A DNA stretch of 64,000 nucleotides, from contig CP136063.1 of the NCBI GenBank assembly GCA_032622095.1, positions 15,045,814 through 15,109,813 on the forward strand, written 5' to 3'. The notes beneath the pieces were generated by a model that saw nothing but the letters and a program-made list of their open reading frames with translations, was not told the DNA's origin and did no database searches. The position numbers were made by a program, and so were the translations under genes. Shown piece by piece: positions 5,160 to 40,314 of the stretch; the stretch's first letter is position 1; every line of letters begins with the position of its first letter. This stretch comes from Siphonodentalium dalli. Its lineage: Eukaryota > Mollusca > Scaphopoda > Gadilida > Siphonodentaliidae.

Positions 5160-6485
5160 AGGAAAACCCCAGCGACAAAATACCATCACTTGGAGAAGAT
5201 CGTGACCTGATAGAAGACCTCGAAATCAACGAAGAGGGGGTAAGAAACTTTTGAAAGATGTGAAGACCGGGAAAGCATCAGGACCGGACGGAATTCCTAA
5301 CACCGTTCTAAAAACCTGAGCATATTTGATATCACCAGGACTGACAGCAATATTAAAAAACTCATTAGCAACAGGACAACTACCATCTGACTGGTTAAGT
5401 GCAAACATCGCACCCGTCTACAAAAAAAGGAGAGTCCATCTTGCAGAAAACTACATACATGTCTCTCTAACATATGTATGTTGCAAAATGCTGGAACATA
5501 TTGTATGCCGACACATAATGAACTATCTAGAAAAGCATAACATCCTGACGTCACGAAATCATGGATTTAGGAAAGAACACTCATGCGTCAAACAGCTATT
5601 GACCACCAACACAGATTTCCTAACAACATTTGACGAGAAAATTCAAACTGACGCCGCAATATTAGACTTCTCCAAAGCATTTAACACCGTACCACACAGA
5701 AAACTGCTCGCCAAAATAAGCAACTACGGTATCAAAGGAAAGCTCCACACCTGGCTTCAAAACTTCCTAACACAGAGGCAAATGAGAGTCGTAGTTGAAG
5801 GGCAAGCTTCATCCAGCGTATACGTCGACTCTGGCGTGCCACAGGCAACCACACTTGGATCTCTCCTTTTCCTGTGCCACATCAACGACCTACCAAAGTG
5901 TGTCTCCTCACATGCGAGGTTTTACGCGGACGACTGTTTACTATATCGCCAAATGAAAATATACAACGATCATGTCACTCTACAAAAATACCTAGATAAG
6001 CTAGAGGTATGGGCAGAAACGTTGGGCATCCTATTCAACGCTAAGAAGTGCTACATCATGTCCATGAGCAAAACAACATCATTCACATACCAGCTAAACA
6101 ACTTCCTACTGATAACACATACCTGGGGGTAACACTCTCCAAGGACATGACGTTGTCATCTCACATCACCAAAATAGCACAGAAGGCGAATAGTACGCTA
6201 GGCTTCATTAGAAGAAACCTCAAGAAAGTAAAAAGTAAAAAGCAACCAAAAATTGAATATGTATCAGTTGTCTGGGACCCCCACCTGAAAGAAGACATTG
6301 ACAAATTGGAAAGGACACAAAAGAGAGCAGCTATATTCATAACTGAGGACTATACATCTCAAGGGGAAGGAACAATTACCAACATGCTGCAAAAGTTACA
6401 ACTACAAACATTCGAAAAAGACAGCATGCGATCCACCCAAACAACAATGGACGGAGAACCAGCTGAAACCAACCAACCGTCCTAA
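5160..6485 (+). pseudogene. Non-LTR retrotransposon reverse transcriptase, broken
   Basis: The plus strand encodes much of a LINE-type reverse transcriptase (Jockey/CR1-like; exact clade uncertain). The N-terminal part includes GKASGPDGIPNTVLK at about 5265-5318, followed by an in-frame TGA. The main open stretch, 5326-6132, holds motif A (DFSKAFNTVPH, catalytic Asp at residue 114 of that frame), motif B (SGVPQATTLGSLLF, usually GVPQGT) and motif C (YADD, residues 200-203). A further frameshift lies near 5250. Another near 6110 moves the C-terminal part (YLGVTLSKDMTLSSHI, then IDKLERTQKRAA) to the +1 frame, where an internal deletion precedes IEYVSVVWDP. No endonuclease domain or complete 5' end is visible, so this copy cannot be autonomous. 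It lies inside the fold-back element and ends close to the microsatellite at 6528, as LINE 3' ends often do. Confidence 0.9.
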
Positions 6486-8250: not shown

Positions 8251-8444
8251 ACTGGGGTTATCATCCCATGAGCTCTGACCAAATCTATGCGCGGAATCCA
8301 TGCCGTATATAAGTTGTGCAAGGCCTCCCAATCATAAAGTCTATAGTTACAAAGATTCATTCCGCCTTCTTTTTCTGCTGACATCAAAATCTAAGATTTT
8401 CAATTATCCTGCGACGAACATCTTAAATGTCAGAAACTCCATTT
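8250..8444 (-). other. 3' flank shared with the zinc-finger locus at 34 kb
   Basis: This stretch aligns with about 34020-34245, with common runs such as CCATGAGCT, TGACCAAA and CCAATCATAAAGT. It lies downstream of the zinc-finger stop codons in both loci and is therefore probably 3' UTR or 3' flank copied in a segmental duplication. Confidence 0.7.
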
Positions 8445-9219
8445 GGAGAGATGTATGTGGGCTTATCTCCGGTGTGGAGAGATGTATGTGGGCTTATCTC
8501 CGGTGTGGAGAGATGTATGTGGGCTTATCTCCGGTGTGGAGAGATGTATGTGGCCTTATCTCCGGTGTGGAGAGATGTATGTGGGCTTATCTCCGGTGTG
8601 GAGAGATGTATGTGGGCTTATCTCCGGTGTGGAGAGATGTATGTGGGCTTATCTACGGTGTGGAGAGATGTATGTGGGCTTATCTCCGGTGTGGAGAGAT
8701 GTATGTGGGCTTATCTCCGGTGTGGAGAGATGTATGTGGGCTTATCTCCGGTGTGGAGAGATGTATGTGGGCTTATCTCCGGTGTGGAGAGATGTATGTG
8801 GGCTTATCTCCGGTGTGGAGAGATGTATGTGGGCTTATCTCCGGTGTGGAGAGATGTATGTGGGCTTATCTCCGGTGTGGAGAGATGTATGTGGGCTTAT
8901 CTCCGGTGTGGAGAGATGTATGTGGGCTTATCTCCGGTGTGGAGAGATGTATTTGGGCTTATCTACGGTGTGGAGAGATGTATGTGGGCTTATCTCCGGT
9001 GTGGAGGGATGTATGTGGGCTTATCTCCGGTGTGGAGAGATGTATGTGGGCTTATCTCTGGTGTGGAGAGATGTATGTGGGCTTATCTCCGGTGTGGAGA
9101 GATGTATGTGGGCTTATCTCCGGTGTGGAGAGATGTATGTGGGCTTATCTCCGGTGTGGAGAGATGTTTGTGGGCTTATCTCCGGTGTGGAGAGATGTTT
9201 GTGGGCTTATCTCCGGTGT
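8445..9219. repeat. 31-bp minisatellite, 25 exact-length copies, derived from a zinc-finger linker
   Basis: The unit GGAGAGATGTATGTGGGCTT + ATCTCCGGTGT is 31 bp long. The array is 775 bp, 25 units with substitutions only and no length change. The reverse complement of each unit contains the codons for HTGDKP, the C2H2 linker. A single ancestral-like copy sits at the 3' end of the paralogous gene (about 34240-34270). As 31 is not divisible by three and the unit has no plus-strand stop, all three plus frames stay open, giving spurious 275-320 aa proteins. Confidence 0.95.
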
Positions 9220-10072
9220 GGATTCTGTTATGTGTCACCAAATTGCTCGATTGACAAAATGATTTCCCACACATATCACAACGGTAAGGTTTATCTCCGG
9301 TGTGGGTTCTCTTATGTTTCACCAAGTCGCTCGGGTCATTAAATGATTTCCTACATATATCACAATGGTAAGGCTTATCTCCGGTGTGGATTCTCTTATG
9401 TTTCACCAAGTCGCTCGATTGATTAAATGATTTCCCGCATATATCACAACGGTAAGGCTTATCTCCGGTGTGGATTCTCTTATGTGTCACCAACTTGCAC
9501 GATTGACAAAATGATTTCCCGCATATATCACAACAGTAAGGTTTATCTCCGGTGTGGATTCTCTTATGTTTCACCAAGGTGCTCGATGAATTAAATGATT
9601 TCCCGCATATATTACAATGGTAAGGTTTATCTCCGGTGTGGATTCTCGTATGTGCCACCAAATTACATGTAGTTGATTGACAAAATGATTCATTGCATAT
9701 ATCACAATGGTAATGTTTATCTCCAGTGTGGATTTTCTTATGTGTCGCCAAGATGCTCGATTGATTAAATGATTTCCCGCATATGTCACAACGGTAAGGT
9801 TTATCTCCGGTGTGGATTATCCTGTGTATCACCAAACCGCTCGATTGATTAAATGATTTCCCGCATATATCACACCAATAAGGCTTATATCCGGTGTGGA
9901 TTCTCTTATGATTGACCAAGTGGCTCGATTGATTAAATGATTTACAACATATGTCACAACGGTGAGGTTTATCTCCGGTGTGGATTCTCTTATGCGGCAA
10001 TATCATACGACTTCCCCGTCGAGATAATTTGTCGCCCAATGTTTTGAGTTTGAAACAAACTTCAGCCCACAA
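9176..10072 (-). CDS. C2H2 zinc-finger protein, nine fingers, 5'-truncated
   Basis: The frame encodes nine complete C2H2 fingers (pattern [23 protein letters not shown]) joined by TGDKP linkers, preceded by the last five residues of another finger. Finger 4 is two residues longer between its Cys and His pairs (CQSTTCNLVAH). Such arrays bind DNA in the nucleus, usually as transcription regulators. The first 20 or so residues come from a hairpin insertion (9996-10104), so the annotated Met is probably not native. The paralogue at 34.8-36.1 kb starts MGDAKLNDHETAH, and that N-terminus is missing here. The C-terminus (DKPTNISPHRR, stop) runs into the first minisatellite units. It is either a truncated but translatable gene or an early pseudogene. 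No KRAB, BTB or other effector domain is visible. Confidence 0.75.
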   Translation of the reverse strand: MWAEVCFKLKTLGDKLSRRGSRMILPHKRIHTGDKPHRCDICCKSFNQSSHLVNHKRIHTGYKPYWCDICGKSFNQSSGLVIHRIIHTGDKPYRCDICGKSFNQSSILATHKKIHTGDKHYHCDICNESFCQSTTCNLVAHTRIHTGDKPYHCNICGKSFNSSSTLVKHKRIHTGDKPYCCDICGKSFCQSCKLVTHKRIHTGDKPYRCDICGKSFNQSSDLVKHKRIHTGDKPYHCDICRKSFNDPSDLVKHKRTHTGDKPYRCDMCGKSFCQSSNLVTHNRIHTGDKPTNISPHRR

Positions 10073-10104
10073 TTTACTCGACGGGGAAGTCGTGTGAGAT
10101 TGCC
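9996..10104. mobile_element. Hairpin (fold-back) insertion at the 5' end of the nine-finger gene
   Basis: Arms of about 31 nt (GGCAATATCATACGACTTCC on the left, with its inverted partner ending GTGTGAGATTGCC) enclose a spacer of about 45 nt. It separates the finger array from upstream DNA homologous to the other zinc-finger locus. No clear target duplication was seen. Confidence 0.8.
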
Positions 10105-10129
10105 AAAATAGGATCTAATTAGAACCGAT

Positions 10130-20757: not shown

Positions 20758-20973
20758 TCAGCATCCATCTTACTTCTTCTTAGTCTTACTTGTGTTGATA
20801 TGTCGTTTGGGACAAGCGTGTCTCCGTGTAATTTATATGTATCCTATTTATGTTACTTTCACAAAACTAGCACTAGTAGTATTCACATTCAAATTAAACA
20901 AAGCGGAATGTATATACAAATAGTACAATCCTTGAATTCATGTTGTGACAAGTGAGTAGTGTAAACTGGTAAA

Positions 20974-21198
20974 CAGGTCGGGCAAAGATGCAAAATTGGC
21001 TTACTAGCGAAATCGGGCTCAGTAAGCCAGTTCGATCTCTCGTTTTAATGTGTTTTGACAACGCACACCTGACTTTGCCAGGTGCCGCGACAATGCGCAA
21101 TTCAGTTTTCAACCCATCATTTACGACGCATTAGAGCGCTTTAAAAACCACCATTGTCTCACCTACTCGCAACGGCGGTAATCCTTTTAATTGGTGTT
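20974..21198. repeat. Left terminal inverted repeat (225 bp)
   Basis: 224 of 225 positions match the inverted right end. It contains two internal palindromes: GGCTTACT...AGTAAGCC (20998-21005, 21021-21028) and CACCTG...CAGGTG (21066-21071, 21079-21084). The inner edge carries CCTTTTAATTGG (21183-21194), a CArG-like core. Confidence 0.95.
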
Positions 21199-22130
21199 AC
21201 TTATTGTCTGTTTGCTTTAATTTTAGTGACTGTTTCATAGCCTTGTTCTCGCTATTAAGTTTCTTTTCGACGCGTTCTTGGTCCGGAAATGATAAATTGT
21301 GACGGCAGCAGAAAATTTTCACAAGGAAACGCTTATGATTGGCTGTATATATATCTGGCGAGATGCTTGAACCACCTTTATGATTAGTACTCTTTTTAAA
21401 ATCTACGGAAGACTGCATCAGTTTTGCGGCACAAATACATTCCCGCCGTCATTTTACCACTCTCGTAGCCGGTTTTCCCAACCGCTATCGGTGCAAAAAA
21501 CATGTATCGAGTTATCTTTCTTAATGACAAAGCGCCATAGAGAGTTACTCTGTGCAAATCGCGGTACCGAAGAGTGCCAATCGATAGTGCGCTGTGTGAA
21601 GGTTGACTGATCGGTGTACATTAAAGTGAACTACCGCGATGCTATTTTGATAGACTTGCATTGCTAGGTATATTATAACGAACACGTAACGAAAAAGCAG
21701 TAAACAACCACGATAAACGTGCACTGTCAGTTATATCACACACTAAAATGACAAAATTACGTAGGAAATTATGGTTTCGCTAGGATACAAACACATTAAA
21801 GTGTCTCATATGTTGAGAACACATGTCATATATAGCGTGTACCTACCTCTGTAAGGTGCTGTGAATCCGTGGACGTCGAAATTTCAAATGTACGTACAAT
21901 GAGTCCACATGAACTAGCCCCGCTGACTCAGCCAATCGGAGCATCACGTGTGGATATGTGAGTTGTTTGTTGAGATTATCAACCAATAGCCATTACCCAC
22001 ATACAACTGCAACATTATCTCTCAAGCAACAGGATTTCCCATTGGCCCCAATAAAACATGATAGTCACAGGTAGACGTGTATTTAAGCACATATTGAAGG
22101 CACAAATGTTGTCAAACATATATTTCCGAA
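21199..22130 (+). promoter_or_regulatory. Promoter/5' region of the transposase gene
   Basis: Between the left TIR and the first ATG lie CCAAT boxes (21932-21936, 21983-21987) and a TATA-like TATTTAAG at 22080-22087. The latter is about 45 bp before the ATG, so the 5' UTR would be short if it is used. No competing open frame is supported. Confidence 0.45.
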
Positions 22131-25100
22131 ATGGAGAACGATAGCAAAATTCGCTGTGGTTGCAGCTTACATAACTCGATCGCCGGTGACAAGCCGTTCA
22201 CTTTCAAGAAAGTTGGCAGCAAGAAGATAGAAAAACGAATATTGGAAACACTTTACGAAAATAATCTGATGTCAAGGTACGTCTAACATTTTATCTATAT
22301 AAGCCCAGTTCCACTGAAATGGCCAGTGTCACCCTTACCGTTCAGTTGGGTACCCAGCTGTTTGAATGTTCACTTGAGTACCCATCTTTTATAAAATTTG
22401 ATGTGGCTTGTTGACATTCATCGAAAAGCTCTCGGTGAGAGCTTTCCGATGAATGGCAACAAGCCACATATCCGACTAAATCATGAAAATTTACCCATAG
22501 TTTTGCTGTGGTTAAGTGGTCAATTACGTTTGGCATTATCGAACGCCAAATTGTAAATATTTACATCTCTATTCGGGACGCAGTGCTTGTAATTAATATA
22601 TAAGAATGGGGGTGTGTATCTTTAAATAAATTGGTTTTAAATATTTTGCAATATATGTTTTAAATGTTAAACACACTGGATATGTTCATATTATCCAAAT
22701 ACCACGACAATGATAGCTTTATAAAAATAAATATCTGTACTTTTGCGTGATAGCATCAGTTTGCATTACCAGCATCATATATTAAGTCAACGGGACCAAC
22801 CAGCATCACAGTATATTAGCAGGACCACTTGGCCAGTGGTGACTATGTCCTGTTGTTTCTAATAAGGTGTTTTAAAAATTACAGTGGTTGGAACAAGAGA
22901 GTCAACGACTGTTGAGTCGTTAACTTTATTGTAAAGTTTGGGAATAATATCGGCTGTACTTGTCAATCATCTTTAAATAGGTGATACCATGTTTCTCAAA
23001 GGGTAGCAATCAATTCACCGCGGATAATGCATAACTTACATGTCAAAATATATTATTGAAGTCCGAGTCAGAAAACATTCAGATTGGAGGGGAGGTGGGA
23101 GGGCATAAAATATCTGAAGTATGTATGAGCATAAATTGAAAGTTGCATTTGAGTCTCTGTATTGACAACCGATTAATAGTAGGCTATTTTCATCTCATTT
23201 CAGAAAAGCTGTGCGCCTCTGTAGTTTGTGCGAGGAAGATGTTGAACTACAAATGTCACCAGAAACATCTTCGGCAACGTCAGACAACACACCAAAAGAT
23301 GATATAAATGCTGAAACTGTCATTTCTAAAATAAGGGAAGGTGGATTTTCTCCTACAGAGTTGTCGGCAATTGCGAGAGCAATAGGTGAATCTCAAAATG
23401 ACACTATATATAAACAGAGTGAAATAAATATGAATTATGATTCCTTAGGACATTTCAACCGAACATATTGGTTGTCGTGCCAAAATGGTGTTTTAGTCTC
23501 CTTCTTGGAAGGAATCAGTCAATGCAACATTAAAACAGATAAGAAAATCAACACTTTGTGTATGGCGATCGAGCAAATTAGATATTTGAGAAATACAAAA
23601 TATATTGGACCTATTTCATTCATGGTTAACCTTTTGACATATTTCGTTACTTCTAGTAAGACAGTGTGTAATATTTTAGGGATATTACACGCTTCAGCCT
23701 CATATACATTCATATTGGACTGGGCAAAGGCCAATGCATCACAACCACTAACATGTCCAGTTTCCGGAAATGTGGTCACATTCTTTGACAACAATCAGGT
23801 TTTGGGAAGGCGGTGGCGCGTAAACATCAATGCAAAACCACTTCTCAGTGTCATCACCAACATTGTACATATATCTCCTATTTATTATAAAAATGTTCAA
23901 CATGATGAAAAGTTATCACCAACAATATGGCTGAAAACCAACCTCACAAAACAAAAACAAATTGTTGATTTGATGAGGGAGGAAATAGTTAATTCGCAAA
24001 GTTTGTTTAAGGAAGAGCGAGACAAATTCATTTCGGAAAGGTTAAAAAGTGTAATGAATGAGCAGATAGTTTCCGATGGACACGTCACTGACTTTCTGGA
24101 CATGGATGCTACAAATGATGTTGGTGCAGAAATAGAACCCTCCAAAGTTACGTTTTCGAATACCGGAAAAAGAATCCTTGAAAAAAGTAAGACATTAGAC
24201 TCTCGCTACACGGGAGTTGCTAGTGCTCACCCACCTGGAAAACCAACTATTAAAATGGGTGATCCTATTGAAACAAACCCATGTTCGTATGTAGCTGTAG
24301 AGAGTGTTCTCAGATCCCTCGCATCAAGAGCTATCGAAAACTGTGAGCGCAAATGGTCTGTGATTGGGTGTGATGGAAACCCCTACGTCATCGGTGCAAA
24401 AATTATTCAGCGAACACCCGAAAATGACATTTTAAAAAACATCTTACTGACACCAGGTCTCGGCCACATCGAAATTAATATTGTTAGAGCTGTGTTTAAA
24501 ATTTCGTGGGATTTGATACTAAAGGACGTAGGGAAGATGTTGGGGTTTAAAACACCAAATGCTATGGCGGCATGCAAAGGGGCATATGATCACCACAAGT
24601 CCTGGCAAATTCTCCAGATATTCATGTACGCCACTACAGACGAACTTTTGCTTCCATATATACGCGACTGTATCAGCAGAGGAGACTCTCCATCTGTGTC
24701 AGGTTTTGACAATTGGACAAATTCGCATTCTCAAGATGCAAATTTTTGCCTGATACATGATTTAGTGTTTACTTATGTTTTCGGACTTAATCTATTCAGG
24801 ATAGGCGTCAGAAGAAATTCAAGTGAAATAATTGTAGCCGCAACTAATAAATTGTCTCTGCTTTCTTTTGGGCTTAATATGCTTAATTACATGGAAATTT
24901 TTATGAGGGATTTGGCGTGTCGTGTTCAGCGGCCACTTGATGTTGCTGATTTTATGGATAAGACAATGTCATTTTCGCAATCCGGAAATCCATGTGCCGG
25001 TGAAGGAGGTGATTTTCTATTAGAAAATAAAAACAGAAGGACGAAAATGTGGGTTCCACCTGGTGTTCCCGACAGTGCAAGATGGTTCAGGGTATGTCGC

Positions 25101-28100
25101 AACCTGGACAAACTTGAAAGGGTAAGTTTAATAATTAGTAATACATGTATACAATCAATATTTCACTTCTTTCCCTTTTTCACGTATTTGCCACGCTTTG
25201 GCGCTTTACCTTTGCTACCACGTGGCTCCTCATCGGAGTCAGCCGGGGGTGCTACGAAAATGTCAACATTTTTCTTACATGCATCCACAGGCTTGTCTTT
25301 TCGCAAAGCCGCAAGCTTGTGCTCATGGCAAAAGAACTTTAATGCTTTGATTTCTTTGTTATCAAGCCCAACTAAGCCGACACAGTACCCATGCACCCAG
25401 TACTTGCATGCTTTTACTTTACACCCTACCCAGCGACCAAGCTCGTCGCAGGGTACGGTGTAAATACGTCCGCAGACGCGGCATCTATTCTTGCCGGACG
25501 CAATTTCGCCCGTGTTGGTTGCTGACGAAACTCTTCTTATTTTGGGAGCCGACGTTGATGGCAGATTTACTGGCCCTGTTGTTGTTGCTGCTGCTGTTGT
25601 TGTTGTTGTTGGTCGTGGTGGTGGTGGTGATGGCACTGCTGGTGACACGCCCTTTTGTTTATTTTTAACCACACCCTTCAATTGAAATTGTGATGTATGT
25701 TTCTAGGTGAATTGACACATAATTTTGTGACGTTCAAGTTAAAACTTCGTTCAAGGTCTGAAACACTAAGTACATGTTTTTGATTGTATCGTGATACACT
25801 CAACACGATATACTTAGTGTTTCAGACCAACTTAACTATAACAATTTGGATCCCAATATATGTCGTAACAAAACTTTTAGGCAATATAGTTCCATATAAA
25901 ACTTGTGCAGCTATAATGTAACATAACATAACGTTGTTTATGGTTGATTCAGTGAAACGTCACCATTAGCATTAATGGACAAGGTTATGGTTTATGTTGT
26001 ATGTGAAGTCGTTCATTCCTGCTTTAAATCTTTAAATTCAAAATATAAATTCACAATGGTTCAAAATACAAATTATTATGGTATACATTGTTATCTTTGG
26101 TGGGCGGTAATCAACAGCTACTGTTTACATAAAATTTCTGATCCATTTAAAGATACGGTGGCGTTCGTTGTGGATATTATTGTTAAAATGGTCACTTCCG
26201 TTAAAGCCGCCATAAACAGAAAGAATATTTAAATATAGCAACAGAATGTTCTTGTACTAAACCCAAATATTTGCATAAATAGTAGGTTATTGTCAAGTTC
26301 GTACGCTTTGCTATGTAAACAAAAGCCAAAAACATTTACACAACATGGATTTTGTTTACATAACAAAGCATACATAAATGATAATAACATATTGTTTATA
26401 CTATATTTATTATAGGTATAAAATCACATATGTCCATATTTTAATATTCTGTCTGTTTATGTCAGTTTTAAAGGGTGACTATTTTAACAGCATACCCACC
26501 AGGAAGACAATCCGTGTCTTTAATTATTTGTTCACAAATCCTCTAATTAATTTCATTTTATTTATTCTGAATACACATCATGCTGTTGTGCGCATTACAT
26601 AAATGTATGTCATAATTGTCTTAAATTGAATTGGACATTTAACATTATTGGATATGTTGTGGACAATCCTTCAAGCATTTCATTAATATATCGAACTTTA
26701 TGAATGATGAAATAAAACTGTACCTCATAAACTTCCGCGAAATGTCCTTCGCTGACGAAATACATCTTCTTTCTCCTTTCGTATTCCACGTCAACGAATA
26801 CATCAGCCCCCGTGGCAACACTCAGTTCCCATGCCTATTTTGATATACAAAATGAATAAACACTATTATTAAACAATAGCTTAATTGAATGAATGCATGT
26901 TGCAACTTTACTTTTCTTTCCATCTGGACAATTTTCCTGCCCGGAACAACAAGGGATATAACTCGACTTCTATTAACATATGTACGGAGTAAGATTATCG
27001 ACATAACAGAATGCCCTCTTTGCTTAGCGCATCTTATTACATGGTACATTTTCGCATGGAGCAATGACGTCATACATTAAAGTTGCGATTTGTTTTTAAC
27101 TATTATCAAATTCAACATGCTGCTTAATGAAAATTTCTTCCATAGTCTACGAATTACGTATTTTGTTAAATTGTAGATACGATGCAACATGGAAACTATG
27201 TTTGGCCAGTCGGCAACTCTCCAAGATCAGGGCGAAGAGAAGCACCAGGCTAGAAATATTGATCTGTCCAAAGAAATCAATGGCTGCAGGAAACTGTTGA
27301 GGGGCTCCTCATTTATCTATAGCAATATCGACAGGGTTGCTGCAGTTTCCTTTTCCGGTAAATATATATAATCATATCCCAATCGATCCTATACAAAAAA
27401 CGAGCAATTGGGAATTAATGTTATAACTATACACTAAATGAATGATGGATGTACAATATATTGCAAAAGGCATGTGTAATTGGATACAACAGTATTATGT
27501 TTCAATAATTAGTTGTAATGATGTGTCAATAACTGTGTGATTCAAACGGTACATAATTACTTATTTGTCGAATCGTGTTTTGTTTCTTTTTACAGGAGAA
27601 ACGCTTGATGACAGACTGCATGTCTTCAGCGATCGATGCAATCGAAACCGTGAGACGTATCTAACCAGATTAGAAGAGAAGGGGGAATACAGACAGGCCC
27701 TCGAAGAACCCATCTTCATTAAGCACGCAGACAGGGTACTGGCAGAGTCAATCCAAAGCAAAACAATCCCAGTGTTAAAGGCCATGGCAGAGGGATATCT
27801 TGACCAATTGGACCTGGTTGGTGACACCGACGCGCATGCACAATTAAGCAGCGACTACCAGACAGCAAAGAAGGGGAAAAAGGTCGACATCGTAAAATTT
27901 TGTCAGCGGCTAAAAAATGCTGTTGCTGCGACACAAGACTATTCAACCTCAGGTATGTGTCATTACACATTTGCATGCATTCAATTATATAGATTATGAT
28001 TTACATTGGCCAATGTATGTCAAATGTATACAAGGGCGATAAAATATGCCTCACCTTTTTCAAAACAGTGTTACTCCGCTTTCGAAATAATTGTGATCTC

Positions 28101-28489
28101 TTCACGTTGTCTGTTTCCAAGCTTGGCTTTCTCACCCCCCGTGCATGGGTTTTCGACCTGCATGGTTGGCCTTTTACATTTTTCCCCGGATTTGTACCTT
28201 TTTTCCTCTCTATCAACTTCCATTGATGTGGTTCGGCCGAATCGTCCTCGCTGTTCCCAGATTGGGTTTCGGAATCTGACGACTGGAAAAATATGTAGGC
28301 TTATAGCCAATTGCTATTTTCACACCAAACATTCCAATTCAGTAGAGTAATTTGTATTATTAAAATCATTAATTTTATTTCAATGTTGTGTTTACAATTG
28401 TTGACAAACTGCTTTCATACACTTTCATTGCAGTAAACGTAGAGTTTGCGAGCACAGAAGATGATACTTGTGCGTCGATGGCGATGTAA
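22131..28489 (+). CDS. Putative transposase, five exons, 885 aa
   Basis: Exons 22131-22276, 23204-25121, 27177-27357, 27596-27952 and 28434-28489 join with GT-AG introns. Coding length is 2658 nt (886 codons with TAA). Phases agree at each junction. The start GAAATGG has A at -3 and G at +4. Exon 1 plus the start of exon 2 give a CxC (C9, C11) and CxxC (C55, C58) zinc-binding pair, a likely DNA-binding module. The body holds FFDNNQVLGRRWRV (residues 242-255), IGCDGNPYVIGAK (about 437-449), PGLGHIEIN (466-474), YDHHKSW (about 510-516) and GEGGDFLLE (648-656). These acidic motifs, within alternating strand-like and helix-like segments, suggest an RNase H-like DDE transposase. Asp244, Asp439 and Glu656 are guesses only. 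The C-terminal exons are charged and helical. It may be related to the DUF6589/KDZ-like eukaryotic transposase group, but I cannot confirm this. Confidence 0.85.
22401..22469. repeat. Hairpin in intron 1 of the transposase gene
   Basis: Arms of 33 nt (ATGTGGCTTGTTGACATTCA..., mirrored by ...GGCAACAAGCCACAT) enclose a 3-nt loop. A half-copy of the 14.2-kb palindrome follows at about 22490-22545 (TTTGCTGTGGTTAAGTGG). Confidence 0.85.
23204..25121 (+). CDS. Exon 2 of the putative transposase (main exon)
   Basis: This 1918-nt exon begins after the acceptor CATCTCATTTCAG and ends at the donor GAAAGG|GTAAGT. The open frame runs on into the intron to 25463, but residues after LDKLER become low-complexity and lie antisense to the PHD-like exon, so the donor is taken as the true end. 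A split codon (AG|A, Arg49) joins it to exon 1. It carries CxxC (C55, C58) and nearly all the conserved-looking acidic motifs of the protein. Confidence 0.85.
25163..25675 (-). CDS. PHD-like exon (last exon of the antisense gene)
   Basis: This 513-nt exon (171 codons with stop) starts after AATTGAAG and encodes a Pro/Thr-rich linker. It continues with the Cys/His cluster (C-x2-C, C, W-V-G-C-x4-C, W-V-H-x2-C, F-F-C-x-E-H) and ends in a basic tail, GKYVKKGKK. The stop is 42 bp from the donor of transposase exon 2, facing it. ATTAAA just downstream on the minus strand could serve as poly(A) signal; it overlaps the plus-strand donor region. Confidence 0.85.
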   Translation of the reverse strand, partial: GVVKNKQKGVSPAVPSPPPPRPTTTTTAAATTTGPVNLPSTSAPKIRRVSSATNTGEIASGKNRCRVCGRIYTVPCDELGRWVGCKVKACKYWVHGYCVGLVGLDNKEIKALKFFCHEHKLAALRKDKPVDACKKNVDIFVAPPADSDEEPRGSKGKAPKRGKYVKKGKK

Positions 28490-28673
28490 CTAGTCAAAGT
28501 TCACCTATAAGTGTATGCAGCTCGCAGGATTGCGGTGTAACGATATAAGATGTGTGAGTACATTTATCTATCTATCTTTTATCTCTGAATAATTCGTACG
28601 ACATTCGTTCAAAGTGGCATATTGTTATCAACAAAATAACTTGAATCAATGTAAGCCTACGTACCGATTTCAT
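25163..28673 (-). CDS. Antisense MADS-box + PHD-like zinc-finger protein, about 286 aa
   Basis: Minus-strand exons are 28055-28282, 26724-26834 and 25163-25675, with a tentative first exon 28665-28673 (ATG AAA TCG|GTACGT). Three exons of 228, 111 and 513 nt join in phase 0 through ATTTTTCCAG, AAG|GTGAGG, TCAAAATAG, GAG|GTACAG and AATTGAAG sites. The first part is acidic then basic (SSDSETQSGNSEDDSAEP). Residues about 58-115 match the MADS domain: DNVKRSQLFRKRSNTVLKK then AWELSVATGADVFVDV. In SRF the core is KKAYELSTLTG. A Pro/Thr/Ala-rich linker leads to CRVCGRIYTVPCDELGRWVG, then CKVKACKYWVHGYC and FFCHEH, a PHD-like cross-brace with His as last ligand. The tail is Lys-rich, possibly nuclear targeting. 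Probable DNA/chromatin-binding accessory protein of the transposon. The first exon is the weakest part. Confidence 0.75.
25755..25828. repeat. Hairpin within the transposon
   Basis: GGTCTGAAACACTAAGTA is mirrored by TACTTAGTGTTTCAGACC around a loop of about 38 nt, between the PHD-like exon and the MADS exon of the antisense gene. Confidence 0.85.
26180..26600. repeat. Degenerate inverted repeat, MITE-like, inside the transposon
   Basis: The stretch 26180-26240 (TTAAAGCCGCCATAAACAGA) pairs imperfectly with 26428-26492 (TCTGTCTGTTTATGTC). The right part is also similar to 33640-33905. Open frames here are low-complexity and not supported. Confidence 0.55.
26724..26834 (-). CDS. MADS C-half exon of the antisense gene
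   Basis: This 111-nt, 37-codon exon runs between acceptor TATATCAAAATAG and donor GAG|GTACAG. It begins AWELSVATGADVFVDVEYE, the second half of helix 1 and first strand of a MADS domain, and ends FAEVYE. It lies in intron 2 of the opposite-strand transposase gene. Confidence 0.8.
27177..27952 (+). CDS. Exons 3 and 4 of the putative transposase
   Basis: Exon 3 (27177-27357) starts after AAATTGTAG and ends TTTTCCG|GTAAAT. Exon 4 (27596-27952) starts after TTTTTACAG and ends ACCTCAG|GTATGT. Exon 3 leaves one base that completes a Gly codon in exon 4 (FSG|ETLDDRL). The encoded segment is charged, with EEKGEYRQALEEP and AKKGKKVDIVKF, and resembles no catalytic domain. Confidence 0.8.
28055..28282 (-). 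CDS. MADS N-half exon of the antisense gene
   Basis: This 228-nt, 76-codon exon lies between acceptor CATATTTTTCCAG and donor GAAAAAG|GTGAGG. It carries an acidic start, then basic residues leading into FRKRSNTVLKK, which matches the SRF core SKRKTGIMKK. It lies in intron 4 of the transposase gene. An overlapping frame starting MEVDREEKRYKSG is the alternative; phase and MADS similarity favour this one. Confidence 0.75.
28434..28489 (+). CDS. Exon 5 (terminal) of the putative transposase
   Basis: After acceptor CACTTTCATTGCAG, 56 nt complete the split Val codon and encode NVEFASTEDDTCASMAM, then TAA. The phase match with exon 4 is the main support. Confidence 0.7.
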
Positions 28674-29085
28674 TTTCTGACAGCAATGCACCTCAATATG
28701 CGTTCTACAAAATTATGACCAAGCTAGCACTGTTACGAGTATCATTATATTCACCACTGCTTGGTCATGTGACAGGTTAATGAGTTCGGGACACGGGTAA
28801 TCGTGATAACGAGCTCATTTCATGGTCAATCGTCACGCTTGCGAATTTGATCTTTGTTATTTTGTGATTGTCCGTGCGTGCTTCCATACTATTGTTCTCT
28901 TAACCATGAAAATAATGTGAATTTGCGAAATACTATCCTCCAATCAAATTTCTTGCAACCAAAAGCTTACCTTGACCTTTGTAAACAGCTTGTCTTCAAA
29001 AAATGACGTGGCCGGCCATCACCTGAATTGCGCTACTAACTTCATCTTGGAAGAATATAGGAAGCTTAATTATCGGCTGTCATTA

Positions 29086-29310
29086 AACACCAATTAAAAG
29101 GATTACCGCCGTGGCGAGTAGGTGAGACAATGGTGGTTTTTAAAGCGCTCTAATGCGTCGTAAATGATGGGTTGAAAACTGAATTGCGCATTGTCGCGGC
29201 ACCTGGCAAAGTCAGGTGTGCGTTGTCAAAACACATTAAAACGAGAGATCGAACTGGCTTACTGAGCCCGATTTCGCTAGTAAGCCAATTTTGCATCTTT
29301 GCCCGACCTG
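29086..29310. repeat. Right terminal inverted repeat (225 bp)
   Basis: Inverted copy of 20974-21198 with one mismatch. Its outer end CTTTGCCCGACCTG is followed by GTAAA, the 5-bp duplication seen before the left end. Open frames spanning the two TIRs (starting MKTELRIVAAPG) are identical to each other because the TIRs are, and are not genes. Confidence 0.95.
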
Positions 29311-29315
29311 GTAAA

Positions 29316-30208
29316 TGTAATCACGATTCACCGGAAATCTGGCCATTAATTAGAATCAGTAATTTTGAACTAACGCCCGCTAAATCCACGTTGAAAAGAC
29401 GAAGTCAGAATAATTCCTCACGTCCAAGATGAAGCCTAATTTCATTTCAATTTCAAGGATTTTAATTTTTTGTTTGAGAATTGTCCCGACCTTGTCCTTC
29501 ACCTTGTTGGAATAACCGGAAATGTGTTTTGAAATTTTGTCCCGGTCTTCGCTAATGACAACTGTTGTTAAGCTTTGGAGTTGGAACAGAGACTGCTGAG
29601 AATTGATAAATTAGACGCACTTTTGCGATTAAATTCATTCAGTTGATGGCACCTATGATCTAGTTATCTTGCCAAGTTAACTTTCAGTTAATCATTCATT
29701 GAAACATGAACGGCAATAACAAAGACTCAGAGTTTGAAACTGTCAGTTTCAAACACAAACTTGACCAAGCCAGACTCAAACAACGGAAGTCTCAAATCAC
29801 AGTAAAACTAAAAGAAGTGTTTTGGTGACATTTTTCGGTCCGAAACAATATATGAAGTACAATTTTTTATTTAGATCACTCACCTATGTATATAGTTTTC
29901 ATCTCATCCTTTTGTTGTGTGATAATAGGTAATTTGTGGAAATACTAACGCCGAGGTGGTGAGTTCTGTATTTGAACTACTAGGCTTAGCAACAACCATG
30001 TCTATGCAACGTCAAATCTGATTGGTTAAGATAGACAATCTGACCAATAGGAAAATCATTTTTATTGCGCCTTTCATTTAAGAGAGCGCCACTTTACGTT
30101 ACGTCAAGCGCGTGCTCTGATACTATTCTCAGGTAACGTGAACTATATATAGAACACAATAATACAGCTTCACAGGTATGCGGATCTCATGCGCGTTACC
30201 GTCATGAA
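29316..30208. other. No gene recognised
   Basis: Flank of the transposon. A small palindrome, GTTTGAAACTGTCAGTTTCAAAC split into two 9-nt arms, lies at about 29732-29754. Otherwise featureless. Confidence 0.5.
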
Positions 30209-30247
30209 AACTTTCAGATTTCGCATCGCGAAATCTGATTAAGTTTT
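30209..30247. repeat. Hairpin next to the minisatellite
   Basis: AAAACTTTCAGATTTCGC / ATC / GCGAAATCTGATTAAGTTTT forms a stem of about 18 nt, ending where the 37-bp array begins. Confidence 0.8.
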
Positions 30248-31427
30248 CTATAATTTGACGTTAGTTTCGGGACCGGACAGTAGATATATAATTTGACGTT
30301 AGTTTCGCGGCCGGACAGTAGATATATAATTTGACGGTAGTTTCGGACCGGACAGTATATATATAATTTGACGTTAGTTTCGGGGCCGGACAGTAGATAT
30401 ATAATTTGACGTTAGTTTCGGACCGGACAGTAGATATATAATTTGACGTTAGTTTCGGGGCCGGACAGTAGATATATAATTTGACGTTAGTTTCGGACCG
30501 GTGTCGGGACCGGACAGTAGATATATAATTTGACGTTAGTTTCGGACCGGACAGTAGATATATAATATGACGTTAGTTTCGGACCGGACAGTAGATATAT
30601 AATTTGACGTTAGTTTCGGACCGGACAGTAGATATATAATTTGACGTTAGTGTCGGGACCGGACAGTAGATATATAATTTGACGTTAGTTTCGGGACCGG
30701 ACAGTAGATATATAATGTGACGTTAGTTTCGGACCGGACAGTAGATATATAATTCGGAAATTACATTGTGGTACTTTACCAGTTCATGTTAACAAAAGCG
30801 AAAGTCTAGGGCCCCTGTATAATATATATAAATCAACATGGAATTTGACGTTAGTTTCGGGACCGGACAGTAGATATATAATTTGACGTCAGTGTCGGGA
30901 CCGGACAGTATATATATATAATTTGACGTTAGTGTCGGGACCGGACAGTAGATATATAATTTGACGTTAGTTTCGGGACCGGACAGTAGATATATAATTT
31001 GACGTTAGTTTCGGACCGGACAGTAGATATATAATTTGACGTTAGTTTCGGACCGGACAGTAGATATATAATTTGACGTCAGTGTCGGGACCGGACAGTA
31101 TATATATAATTTGACGTTAGTTTCGGGACCGGACAGTAGATATATAATTTGACGTTAGTTTCGGACCGGACAGTAGATATATAATTTGACGTTAGTTTCG
31201 GACCGGACAGTAGATATATAATTTGACGTCAGTGTCGGGACCGGACAGTAGATATATAGTTTGACGTTAGTGTCGGGACCGGACAGTAGATATATAATTT
31301 GACGTTAGTGTCGGGACCGGACAGTTAATATATAATTTGACGTTAGTGTCGGGACCGGACAGTAGATATATAATTCGGAAATTACATTGTGGTACTTTAC
31401 CAGTTCATGTTAACAAAAGCGAAAGTC
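30248..31427. repeat. 37-39-bp minisatellite, about 27 copies in two blocks
   Basis: Units contain TTTGACGTTAGTTTCGG, then ACCGGACAGTAGATATATAA. Block 1 (30248-30752) has about 13 copies and block 2 (30840-31374) about 14. Both blocks end in the same stretch of about 53 bp, beginning TTCGGAAATTACATTGTGGT (30753-30808 and 31374-31427). The array therefore includes a higher-order duplication. Confidence 0.95.
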
Positions 31428-33042: not shown

Positions 33043-34019
33043 ATCTAACACGACATTTAAGCATACATGGCACTCTCTATACAGGGACATGAGTATGTAG
33101 ATAGAGGTGGGGTGGAAGCACTTTAGTCAGACCATTATATGGATCACATGGATACGGAGACACGGTGACAGGGATAGGGATGAACAGGGGTTTGATTAGG
33201 CCTTTGGGCAGATCATGTGTGTGCGGGATTTAAAATAATAAAATAATATAATTAAAATATAATAAAAAATATGAATTAAAAATAAATTGTGAAAAATAAT
33301 TTAAAACAATCCAAGAAGATAATAAAATTGTGTAACAAAAACGCGACCGCGAATAAAATAATTAACCAATTAAAGGCACGTGAGGCCTTAGTTGTCGAAA
33401 ATATTCATATTTGTTCTAATCACCGTAAACAGAAAAAACATTAAAACGCATACAGTTTGGTTCATATATACCATGAACATCACGTAAGCAGCATGTTATC
33501 ATAAAGACCTACAATATTTTACCTAAGCAAGAGCCTGATTGTGTTACAGAAGACAGTACAATGCTACTGGCTAATCACACACAAATGGCATAAACGCTCT
33601 TTATTAGTTCCATATCAGGAATTCACCAACAAAGAACGCTCTTTATGTTTACCATCATAATATAAACAAACACCAGAAAAGTAACTTTTTATGCTTTTGT
33701 TTACATAACAAGGGTAAACAAATTGACAATAACATACTGTTTGTGCGATATTTCTTATTTGTATACGGACAAAGTCTGTCTACATTTTGATGTTCTTTCT
33801 GTTTGTGGCGGTTTTTGACGGGTGGAAAAAATTTCACAGGATACCCACCGCCAAGGCCAACCGTACCTTTAACCATTTCGGATTCATATTTCATGAAATA
33901 ACTCATGTTGATACGAATCGTTAGTTACCCTCTATCAAAGAGGCGTGGTTACAAGAACGGAGCTACTGGTAAATTGGGTCTCATGTATACCGGTCTAATA
34001 GTAAGTATAAATGGACATT
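33043..34019. other. AT-rich spacer; repeat-like segment at 33640-33905
   Basis: The stretch 33640-33905 resembles 26360-26600 inside the transposon (TTTGTTTACATAACAA, ATACCCACC). The rest (poly-A-rich runs near 33240-33330) has no supported feature. Confidence 0.5.
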
Positions 34020-36073
<2,054 letters not shown>

Positions 36074-36740
36074 TGTGTGGAATAGTCAGATACATGTAGT
36101 CCTCCGCTGTTTATCTCGTTACGTCAGATAGTCCTACAATGTATATATCCGCTGTTTATCACGTGACGTCAGATAGTATTAGTTATCTTCGGCAACATCG
36201 GGGGTATATGGAGATTTAATACCTGGATGTCTCTTTTTGAACCGCCTCGGGGTTCAAAAAGAGACAACCAGGTATTAAATCTCCATATACCCCACGATGT
36301 TGCCGAAGATAACGATTTTGTCCCCACAACAATAGCCATGCGGCCTCAATTTAAGTGTGCTTTTCATAGGTTCTTAGATAAATTAACACCAATCAGCACC
36401 AATAAGAATAATTCAGTAGCCGATCTATGGATCCGGCGTCAGGTGACGTAATGCTCGGCGTGCTAGAGCAACGTCACGATTGGTGGAAACTTCCAGTTCA
36501 AGGGTCATTCATATACCCCCGATGTTTCACGTGCTCATATACCCCCGATGTTTGGCGCACGTTCTCTTATACCCCGTTGTCAAGGGTGACTGGGGACATG
36601 GTGATTTAACCGTGACGTTGTAGCCAGTCAGATTGCTAGTTACAACCGTATGTGGGGACAATCCTACATATCCGCTGTTTTTCTCGTGACGTCAGATAGT
36701 CCTATATATCCGCTGTTATCTCGTTAAGTGGCAATATTTA
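36074..36740 (-). promoter_or_regulatory. 5' flank with repeated CRE-containing units, split by an insertion
   Basis: Four diverged copies of a unit of about 42 bp (TATCCGCTGTTTATCTCG then TTACGTCAGATAGTCCTA) lie at 36106-36180 and 36665-36735. Perfect TGACGTCA (CRE-type) sites stand at 36164-36171 and 36687-36694. About 480 bp between the two pairs looks inserted. The position directly upstream of the 14-finger gene suggests regulatory sequence; this is inferred. Confidence 0.45.
36182..36313. repeat. Long palindrome upstream of the 14-finger gene
   Basis: GTTATCTTCGGCAACATCGG and its inverted partner ending GTTGCCGAAGATAAC form arms of about 61 nt around CGCCTCGG. It is the left part of the apparent insertion that splits the CRE repeats. 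TATACCCCCGATGTT words recur at about 36515-36550, and TTGTCCCCACA/TGTGGGGACAA at 36320/36651. Confidence 0.9.
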
Positions 36741-38978: not shown

Positions 38979-39860
38979 TTAGTACGGGCAATCTCTCGTG
39001 TGGATCCTCTTATGTATCGTGAGGACAAACGATTGGGTATATGATTTCTCGCACACATCACATGTATACGGGCGTTCACCTGTGTGAATCCTCTTATGTT
39101 TCGCCATGTCATTCGACTGAGTAAATGATTTCTCGCACACGTCACATTGATACGGGCGATCACCTGTGTGGATTCTTTTATGTCTCGCCAGGTTACTCAA
39201 CTTGGTAAATAATTTCTCGCAAATATCACATTGATATGGTCGATCCCCCGTGTGGATCATCGTATGTGTCGTCAGGCTACTCGACTGAGTAAATAATTTC
39301 CCGCACACATCACATCGATACGGGCAATCCCCGGTGTGGATTCTCATATGTCTCGCCAGGTAACTCAACTGAGTAAATGATTTTTCGCACACATCGCATT
39401 GGTATGGGCGATCTCCAGTGTGTATCATCTTATGTCTCGTCAGGTAACTAAAATGAGTAAATGATTTGTCGCACACATCACACTGATACGGGCGATACCC
39501 CGCGTGGATTTTCTTATGCATGGAGAGATTACCCAACTGAGTAAATGATTTCTCGCACACATCGCATTGGTACGGACAATCTCCTGTGTGGACCATCTTA
39601 TGTTTCGTCAGGTGACTCAACCGAGTAAATGATTTCTCGCACACATCGCATTGGTATGGGCGATCTCCTATGTGGACCATCTTATGTTTCATCCGGCCAC
39701 TTGATTTATCGCACATCCCACACTGATGTGAACCCTTATGCTTTGTCTTACTGTGCAAACTGCTTGACAACTCTGAATCCGCGGCCATCTGTGACGTACG
39801 TATCGATGTGTGCTTATCATCTTCAGTCTCCATTGTTGATGGCTCCACCTCCCCATACAT
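38979..39860 (-). CDS. C2H2 zinc-finger protein, eight intact fingers plus one degenerate, 293 aa
   Basis: The N-terminal region of about 45 residues is acidic and Ser/Thr-rich (MYGEVEPSTMETEDDKH), followed by a degenerate first finger lacking its central segment (CGMCDKSSGRMKHKMVH). Eight complete fingers of the CDVCEKSFTQLSxLxxHKRIH type follow, with TGDRP/TGDCP linkers. The frame ends TRDCPY at a TAA, where the next finger should continue with Gln and CDMCRKSF; that finger is itself cut short after DPYW. So the array once extended further and a CAA-to-TAA change probably truncated it. It is likely a nuclear DNA-binding protein. The N-terminal sequence is not a recognised effector domain. 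Both Met1 and Met10 are possible starts. It is the best-preserved member of the CEKSFT subfamily in the window. Confidence 0.85.
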   Translation of the reverse strand: MYGEVEPSTMETEDDKHTSIRTSQMAADSELSSSLHSKTKHKGSHQCGMCDKSSGRMKHKMVHIGDRPYQCDVCEKSFTRLSHLTKHKMVHTGDCPYQCDVCEKSFTQLGNLSMHKKIHAGYRPYQCDVCDKSFTHFSYLTRHKMIHTGDRPYQCDVCEKSFTQLSYLARHMRIHTGDCPYRCDVCGKLFTQSSSLTTHTMIHTGDRPYQCDICEKLFTKLSNLARHKRIHTGDRPYQCDVCEKSFTQSNDMAKHKRIHTGERPYTCDVCEKSYTQSFVLTIHKRIHTRDCPY

Positions 39861-39861
39861 G

Positions 39862-40314
39862 ATTTAACTGTATATGTATATGTAATGTTTCTGTACGGAA
39901 TCAAATGATCACTCGTTTACACGATATTACCTGACTAAAGCTAACAAAGAGTATCACGAAAGAGTGAAAATAATCGAACAGTCAATCGATACAGTGAAGT
40001 TAAGAAACCATGAGATGAAAATAAAAATATTTCTGTCCAGAAAAAAGTGTTTGAATAAGTGGTCTTAAGCAGTGGGGTGCGAAACAGAACAATGTCGCAA
40101 TACATAGTTAAAACAAATCAATATAATAGTCAATACCGTATACATGTATTAAGTGACAACTTGAAAGCTTTCAGATTGTAGAGCTATGTCACTTAATTTA
40201 CGGTATTGACTATTATTACCACTTTATATGGCGTTCTCTGCTCTGCAGTTCTTCAAGCCGCCAAGAACCGATATTATGGGGATTTGGTTCTTCGTGCTCC
40301 CTGGAACACCCAGA
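39862..40314. repeat. Spacer with a hairpin at 40130-40210
   Basis: GTCAATACCGTATACATGTA...TTAAGTGAC pairs with GTCACTTAATTTACGGTATT...GAC around a loop of about 28 nt. Nothing else was recognised between the zinc-finger gene and the satellite. Confidence 0.75.

Follow-up and report, generated by a model that had tools for sequence, protein, structure and literature searches.

A two-gene DNA transposon of the scaphopod Siphonodentalium dalli with an SRF-type MADS and PHD-type gene opposite its presumed transposase

The element and its two genes

We analysed a 64,000-nucleotide stretch of DNA (the window) from contig CP136063.1 of the scaphopod mollusc Siphonodentalium dalli (GCA_032622095.1, positions 15,045,814 to 15,109,813 of the forward strand), in which positions 20974-29310 form an 8.3-kb DNA transposon with inverted ends and a 5-bp target duplication. 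On its plus strand the element carries the gene of a presumed transposase, hereafter the sense gene, and on its minus strand a gene that appears to encode a MADS domain followed by a PHD-type zinc finger, hereafter the antisense gene. The terminal inverted repeats measure 225 nt each, the right arm (29086..29310, minus strand) being a perfect (100%) complement of the left (20974..21198, plus strand), whose tip reads CAGGTCGGGCA; both arms adjoin a 5-bp copy of the target site duplication GTAAA (20969..20973 and 29311..29315). From the 2.23-Gb genome (9 contigs) 13 further copies were compared. Five of them (L021-L025, also numbered L034, L035, L023/L036, L037 and L038) match nearly the whole or the whole of the element, at 96.4-98.2% identity, the remainder being partial, deleted or older. 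The tips were inspected in ten of the 13; both are exact in four (L034, L035, L023/L036 and L037), each of which is flanked by a 5-bp duplication (ATTAT, GTAAA, TTAAA and TTAAT), and six match at one tip only. In the related family L039 the terminal repeat measures 204 nt, its tip is again CAGGTCGGGCA and the flanking duplication is TTATA; the left tip is gone from L040, the second copy of this family, which lies on C3. The limits of the L043 element are provisional, as its inverted repeat extends beyond the tip first assumed. Since terminal repeats and 5-bp duplications are found at the window element and at other copies, the element is a DNA transposon.

An earlier note on this DNA had described three minus-strand exons of 228, 111 and 513 nt, with good splice signals and phase 0 joins, encoding FRKRSNTVLKK|AWELSVATG and later FFCHEH. 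All of this holds, the borders being AG/GT, except that the list did not make up a complete gene: a 9-nt start exon had been missed. The four exons joined give a protein of 286 residues. Exon 1 (28665..28673, 9 nt) holds the start codon and encodes MKS (ATGAAATCG, followed by the donor gtacgt), exon 2 (28055..28282, 228 nt) the N-terminal half of the MADS domain, exon 3 (26724..26834, 111 nt) its second half, and exon 4 (25163..25675, 513 nt) a low-complexity linker, the PHD-type finger, a basic tail and a TGA stop. All nine bases of the start exon are kept in L034, L035, L036, L037 and L038; no counterpart of it has been established in other families. The antisense exons lie in introns of the sense gene or outside it and overlap none of its exons, as the note had said. 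The first ATTAAA past the antisense stop (minus strand, 25127-25132; window 25122-25132) touches the complement of the donor of sense exon 2, and sense and antisense transcripts would compete there if it were used.

The sense gene consists of five plus-strand exons that join into a single frame of 885 residues. Exon 1 (22131..22276) begins with ATG, ends at a GT donor and leaves the frame open when joined; exon 2 (23204..25121) encodes the core; exon 3 (27177..27357) has counterparts in the families L039, L041 and L042, and exon 4 (27596..27952) in these and L043; exon 5 (28434..28489) is part of the joined frame and ends with TAA. A palindromic repeat resembling a miniature inverted-repeat transposable element occupies 26147-26523, inside the large sense intron, and a related copy lies 7 kb away at about 33418-33878. 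The core found five relatives in the protein database at 38-46% identity, two of which (LOC134230270 and LOC134265484) come from the oyster Saccostrea cucullata and are uncharacterised; the homolog P0005 matches the window core at E 1.2e-78. No Pfam family matched sense exon 2 of the window at E<=10. The DUF6589 profile scored 30.1 bits on P0005 (cut-off 27) and 18.4-25.7 bits on the other four homologs. By sequence comparison, the window protein is thus joined to the DUF6589 proteins only through its homologs. Residues D195, D390 and E607 (exon 2 numbering), alongside others, are invariant in ten aligned sequences, and may represent the catalytic triad of a putative DDE transposase; we presume that the sense protein is the transposase of the element. 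The structure model of exon 2 (mean predicted local distance difference test score, pLDDT, 46) was too poor for a fold search or a check for an RNase H-like fold. The core had no match in viral or prokaryote contigs, and the term DUF6589 was not found in the literature searched.

The SRF core proposed for the antisense protein in the earlier note is borne out by the SRF-TF profile (PF00319), which matches at 33 bits (E 4.1e-8, cut-off 26) over model positions 4-36 of 48. Its PHD-like part fared less well, the window protein falling just below the cut-off of the PHD profile (22.8 bits, E 9.7e-5, cut-off 24) and the L039 protein above it; zf-HC5HC2H gave 23.3 against a cut-off of 29.1. An alignment of five families shows eight invariant zinc-ligand residues (C65, C68, C85, C90, H95, C98, C116 and H119); the PHD exon keeps W82 and W93 unchanged as well, and these two align with a Tyr and a Trp of BPTF in a weak match (E 0.034). 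Compared with solved structures in the PDB, the five-sequence profile was closest to SRF (9.1e-12), followed by MCM1 (6.2e-10) and MEF2D (1.5e-7), and on the PHD side it matched BPTF (4.8e-4) and RAG2 (0.057). The kelch family was absent from the Pfam matches of the five aligned proteins, and no relatives were found in viral contigs. Structure prediction of the PHD exon (mean pLDDT 40) was too poor for a fold search.

Recurrence, linkage and selection

The DNA downstream of the sense core was read in eight further families (L039/L040, L041, L042, L043, L049, L050, L051 and L052), seven of which carry the antisense gene, so that it is present in eight of nine when the window family is counted. 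All seven have the same three exons, corresponding to exons 2, 3 and 4 of the window gene, with AG/GT borders and the same phase. The weakest piece is the middle exon of L043, whose identification comes from a small profile (E 0.008 within the locus) and from its splice borders. In L051 the gene is broken, with a frameshift in the PHD exon and a stop ahead of the conserved part of its first exon. SRF-TF exceeds its cut-off in all eight families that carry the gene (33, 41.3, 37.1, 43, 27.8, 27.9, 29.6 and 29.0 bits). The PHD scores are 27.3 bits for L039, 22.8 for the window, 16.3 for L041, 20.2 for L042, 20.7 for L043, 20.2 for L049 and 22.8 for L050, the scan having left out L051 with its frameshifted exon. 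Among five families the sense cores are 35-54% identical and the antisense proteins 27-50%. The significant SRF-TF match and the recurrence in eight of nine families uphold the claim that a transposon carries a MADS/PHD protein; across homologous copies the exons are in general conserved rather than broken, and single copies decay nonetheless. Interleaving of the two genes, reported for the window, extends to L039, L041, L043, L049 and L050 but not to L042, where they lie tail to tail (one of the seven families in which the layout was judged; L051 could not be judged). In gene trees of five families, both proteins group L041 with L043, whereas L039 and L042 are joined in the sense tree and not in the antisense tree, so that the congruence of the two trees is partial only.

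The association is also visible across the genome. A query of 46 residues from the first MADS exon gave 42 matches, which merged to 41 loci, and 104 transposase matches merged to 67 loci. Twenty-one of the 41 first-exon loci lie 2.0-5.0 kb downstream of a transposase locus, every one of them on the opposite strand, where 0.03 were expected. This count is a lower bound, because the query did not detect the first exons of L049, L050 and L051. Twelve of the 20 unlinked loci fall within 67.3-71.8 Mb of C6, a region in which deleted derivatives of the element occur. Such derivatives (L028-L031; C6, 67.7-68.1 Mb) have lost the sense exon that encodes the core, together with 136 nt of the final antisense exon. 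In L028 and L031, both of which were read over the antisense region, the acceptor AG of the middle antisense exon is altered, and the antisense gene there is therefore probably dead as well.

The antisense frame shows the signature of constraint. When five young copies were set against that of the window, the ratio of non-synonymous to synonymous rates (dN/dS) was 0.32 (Fisher p 5.7e-6), from 31.5 synonymous and 30.5 non-synonymous distinct changes, against 1.0 and 6.0 for the same exons read in the two shifted frames; excluding codons close to CpG gave 0.34 (p 7.1e-4). The sense gene gave 0.30, and its shifted frames 2.5 and 2.1. These estimates cover antisense exons 2 to 4 and sense exons 1 to 4, and their p values are approximate, since the young copies share branches. 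In comparisons of one family with another, synonymous sites are saturated and the third codon position is the most divergent in all ten pairs. Among the five young copies the antisense gene is frameshifted in three, and the sense gene has a frameshift or stop in all five. From these sequence comparisons we are highly confident that the MADS-PHD gene exists and is under purifying selection.

Origin of the MADS exons and surroundings of the element

Animals have few MADS genes, and a Pfam search of the genome placed SRF-TF at six places. One of these is the host SRF gene, so named on sequence (80.5 bits to SRF-TF), which lies in two pieces 3.9 kb apart, KRKTGIMKK|gtaggg and tttcag|AYELSTLTG, joined in phase 0. 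The MADS intron of the transposon has the same position and phase as this host intron in all eight families that carry the gene, while 15-21 of the 58 residues around it are identical to host SRF. Two other host matches begin at model position 9 and for that reason differ in gene structure. A further match, L058 (C6:3870500-3870800; 27.2 bits), is what remains of a transposon's first MADS exon, NPGKN...KRKNTLFKE, spread over two frames. Because the intron shares its position and phase with that of host SRF, capture of the exons of an animal SRF gene together with their intron is the simplest reading and a likely one, and the low number of matching residues suggests that the event is old. The order of capture events cannot be proved from a single genome.

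Around the element, the window contains four minus-strand open reading frames (ORFs) encoding C2H2 zinc-finger arrays (2044-2517, 9176-10114, 34844-36085 and 38979-39863), a minisatellite (8279-9342) that is open in three frames on the plus strand and has repeats such as WRDVCGLISGVE, and two overlapping plus-strand ORFs (5320-6485) whose products we take, from a familiar motif, to resemble a non-long-terminal-repeat reverse transcriptase. A tandem array with a unit of 37-38 nt lies just beyond the right end of the element (about 30200-31400). Rfam and tRNA scans of the window gave no match.

Possible roles of the MADS-PHD protein and comparison with known systems

MADS domains are known to form dimers and to bind DNA; the joining of such a domain to a PHD-type finger, in a gene opposite that of a presumed transposase, lends itself to a model in which the second protein assists the first. 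In an ancestral element, MADS exons taken up from an animal SRF gene would have become fused with a PHD exon, and each of the two genes would be transcribed inwards from its own end of the element. The MADS-PHD protein would dimerise and bind DNA through its MADS domain, its finger would bind the tail of histone H3, perhaps methylated at K4, and, together with the transposase, it would steer or license transposition at active chromatin, much as RAG2 does for RAG1. By analogy, the protein may be a helper or targeting subunit of the transposase, a role in which we place middling confidence. The account taken as a whole, that is, a two-gene DNA transposon with a captured SRF-type MADS domain, a PHD finger and a RAG2-like mechanism, seems to us evenly balanced between right and wrong.

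The closest parallel is offered by RAGL/ProtoRAG elements, which encode RAG1L and RAG2L. As described in PMC7204232, their terminal repeats likewise enclose a pair of genes that face each other, the second of which encodes a PHD finger, and they too have a 5-bp target site duplication, which is seen here at the window element, at the four of ten other inspected copies with both tips matched and at L039. According to the same paper, K4-methylated H3 is bound by the PHD finger both in RAG2 and in a sea urchin RAG2L. The differences are equally clear: the window sense protein has no RAG1 match and is kin to DUF6589, the tips of the window element read CAGGTCGGGC and those of RAGL CACTWM (PMC7204232), the partner protein bears a MADS domain without any match to kelch, and the genes here are usually interleaved. 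The element may work like a RAG-type element but is not one.

Other two-gene elements are less similar. Mutator-like elements (with mudrB or plant mobile domain ORFs) share long terminal repeats and a second ORF that is often antisense, but a table in PMC6446971 gives a target site duplication of 9 bp or so, against 5 bp here; the domains are others, and that paper does not mention MADS. Harbinger/Nuwa-type elements likewise combine a transposase with a DNA-binding second protein, yet in PMC12730594 their duplication is 3 bp or less and that protein is of the Myb/SANT type rather than MADS; PHD is not mentioned there. The 8-bp duplication ascribed there to KDZ (Zisupton) elements (PMC12730594) does not fit the 5 bp of the window element. 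Animal SRF itself shares the SRF-type MADS domain and the place and phase of the host SRF intron, but the transposon protein is fused to a PHD-type finger, is carried by a transposon and shares 15-21 of 58 residues around that intron. The DUF6589 proteins, such as those of Saccostrea cucullata, are uncharacterised relatives of the sense core.

Several observations weigh against this account. The canonical CArG site (CC W6 GG) occurs nowhere in the window element. The longer CC W8 GG is present in both of its terminal repeats, with three occurrences in the 64-kb window, but is absent from the terminal repeats of L039 and L043; the search for an SRF-type site conserved among terminal repeats gave none, and binding of the ends through such a site is therefore not supported. 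The PHD profile exceeds its cut-off in one of the seven families scanned, L039. The finger is C4HC2H rather than C4HC3, its final ligand being His and not Cys, and the correspondence of W82 and W93 to the aromatic-cage positions of PHD fingers is our presumption. No relative of the antisense protein was found in the protein database with a single sequence (E<=0.01) or with the five-sequence alignment (E<=0.1). Forty-six of the 67 transposase loci had no first-exon match in the single-query search, and L052 had no match to the antisense gene in 5.1 kb. As to the final ligand, some known PHD-type fingers deviate likewise, vertebrate RAG2 ending in Cx2H (PMC7204232).

Among the alternatives, the one that survives best is that the protein is only the transcription factor of the element, which would bind promoters near the terminal repeats and set the level of transposase in certain tissues, remaining outside the transposition complex. 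SRF-type MADS proteins are established transcription factors, and the CC W8 GG sites in both repeats of the window element would suit such a role, but these sites are not kept in L039 or L043, and the PHD finger and facing layout recall RAG2L (PMC7204232); we regard this alternative as unlikely, if worth serious attention. Some further job, beyond those of a helper, a transcription factor of the element or an actor on host SRF targets, is rather improbable. More doubtful still is that the protein mimics SRF in the host, occupying SRF sites or pairing with host SRF, and so alters the cell or targets insertion to SRF-bound genes. The retained intron position and the fact that SRF is the closest to the MADS domain among solved structures speak for such mimicry, yet so few of the 58 residues around the intron match host SRF, and the target site duplications seen are AT-rich 5-mers, not CArG sites. 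DNA transposons are well known to capture pieces of host genes, and the frameshifts in three of the five young copies would suit a captured passenger of no use to the element. This very improbable reading is already disfavoured by an antisense dN/dS (0.32) close to that of the transposase (0.30) and by retention of the gene in eight of nine families, although full comparison of the proteins in five of these gave identities of 27-50%. Finally, although the exons were initially chosen by eye, the domain is interrupted by an intron and the single-sequence search found no database relative, an artefact of a chance frame and chance splice sites resembling a MADS box is in our view excluded by the conserved alignment, with three exons, AG/GT borders and phase common to seven other families, a profile E of 9.1e-12 to SRF, and purifying selection.

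We know of no transposon with a MADS gene as a working part, and no MADS-carrying DNA transposon was found in the literature searched, a search that was incomplete and does not prove novelty in print. What distinguishes the present case is a MADS gene that sits in a transposon across families, is under selection and has an origin that can be traced to host SRF through its intron. With about an even chance, these elements belong to an undescribed superfamily of animal DNA transposons, in which MADS exons captured early on from an animal SRF gene, intron included, were fused with a PHD finger, and the product was kept as the opposite-strand partner of a DUF6589 transposase, in a parallel to RAG1/RAG2 that arose independently. 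DUF6589, a domain of unknown function, is thereby suggested to be a transposase domain. After RAG1/RAG2, the element would be the second example of a PHD-finger gene that faces and accompanies a transposase, which opens to testing the question of whether elements of this kind repeatedly require chromatin reading.

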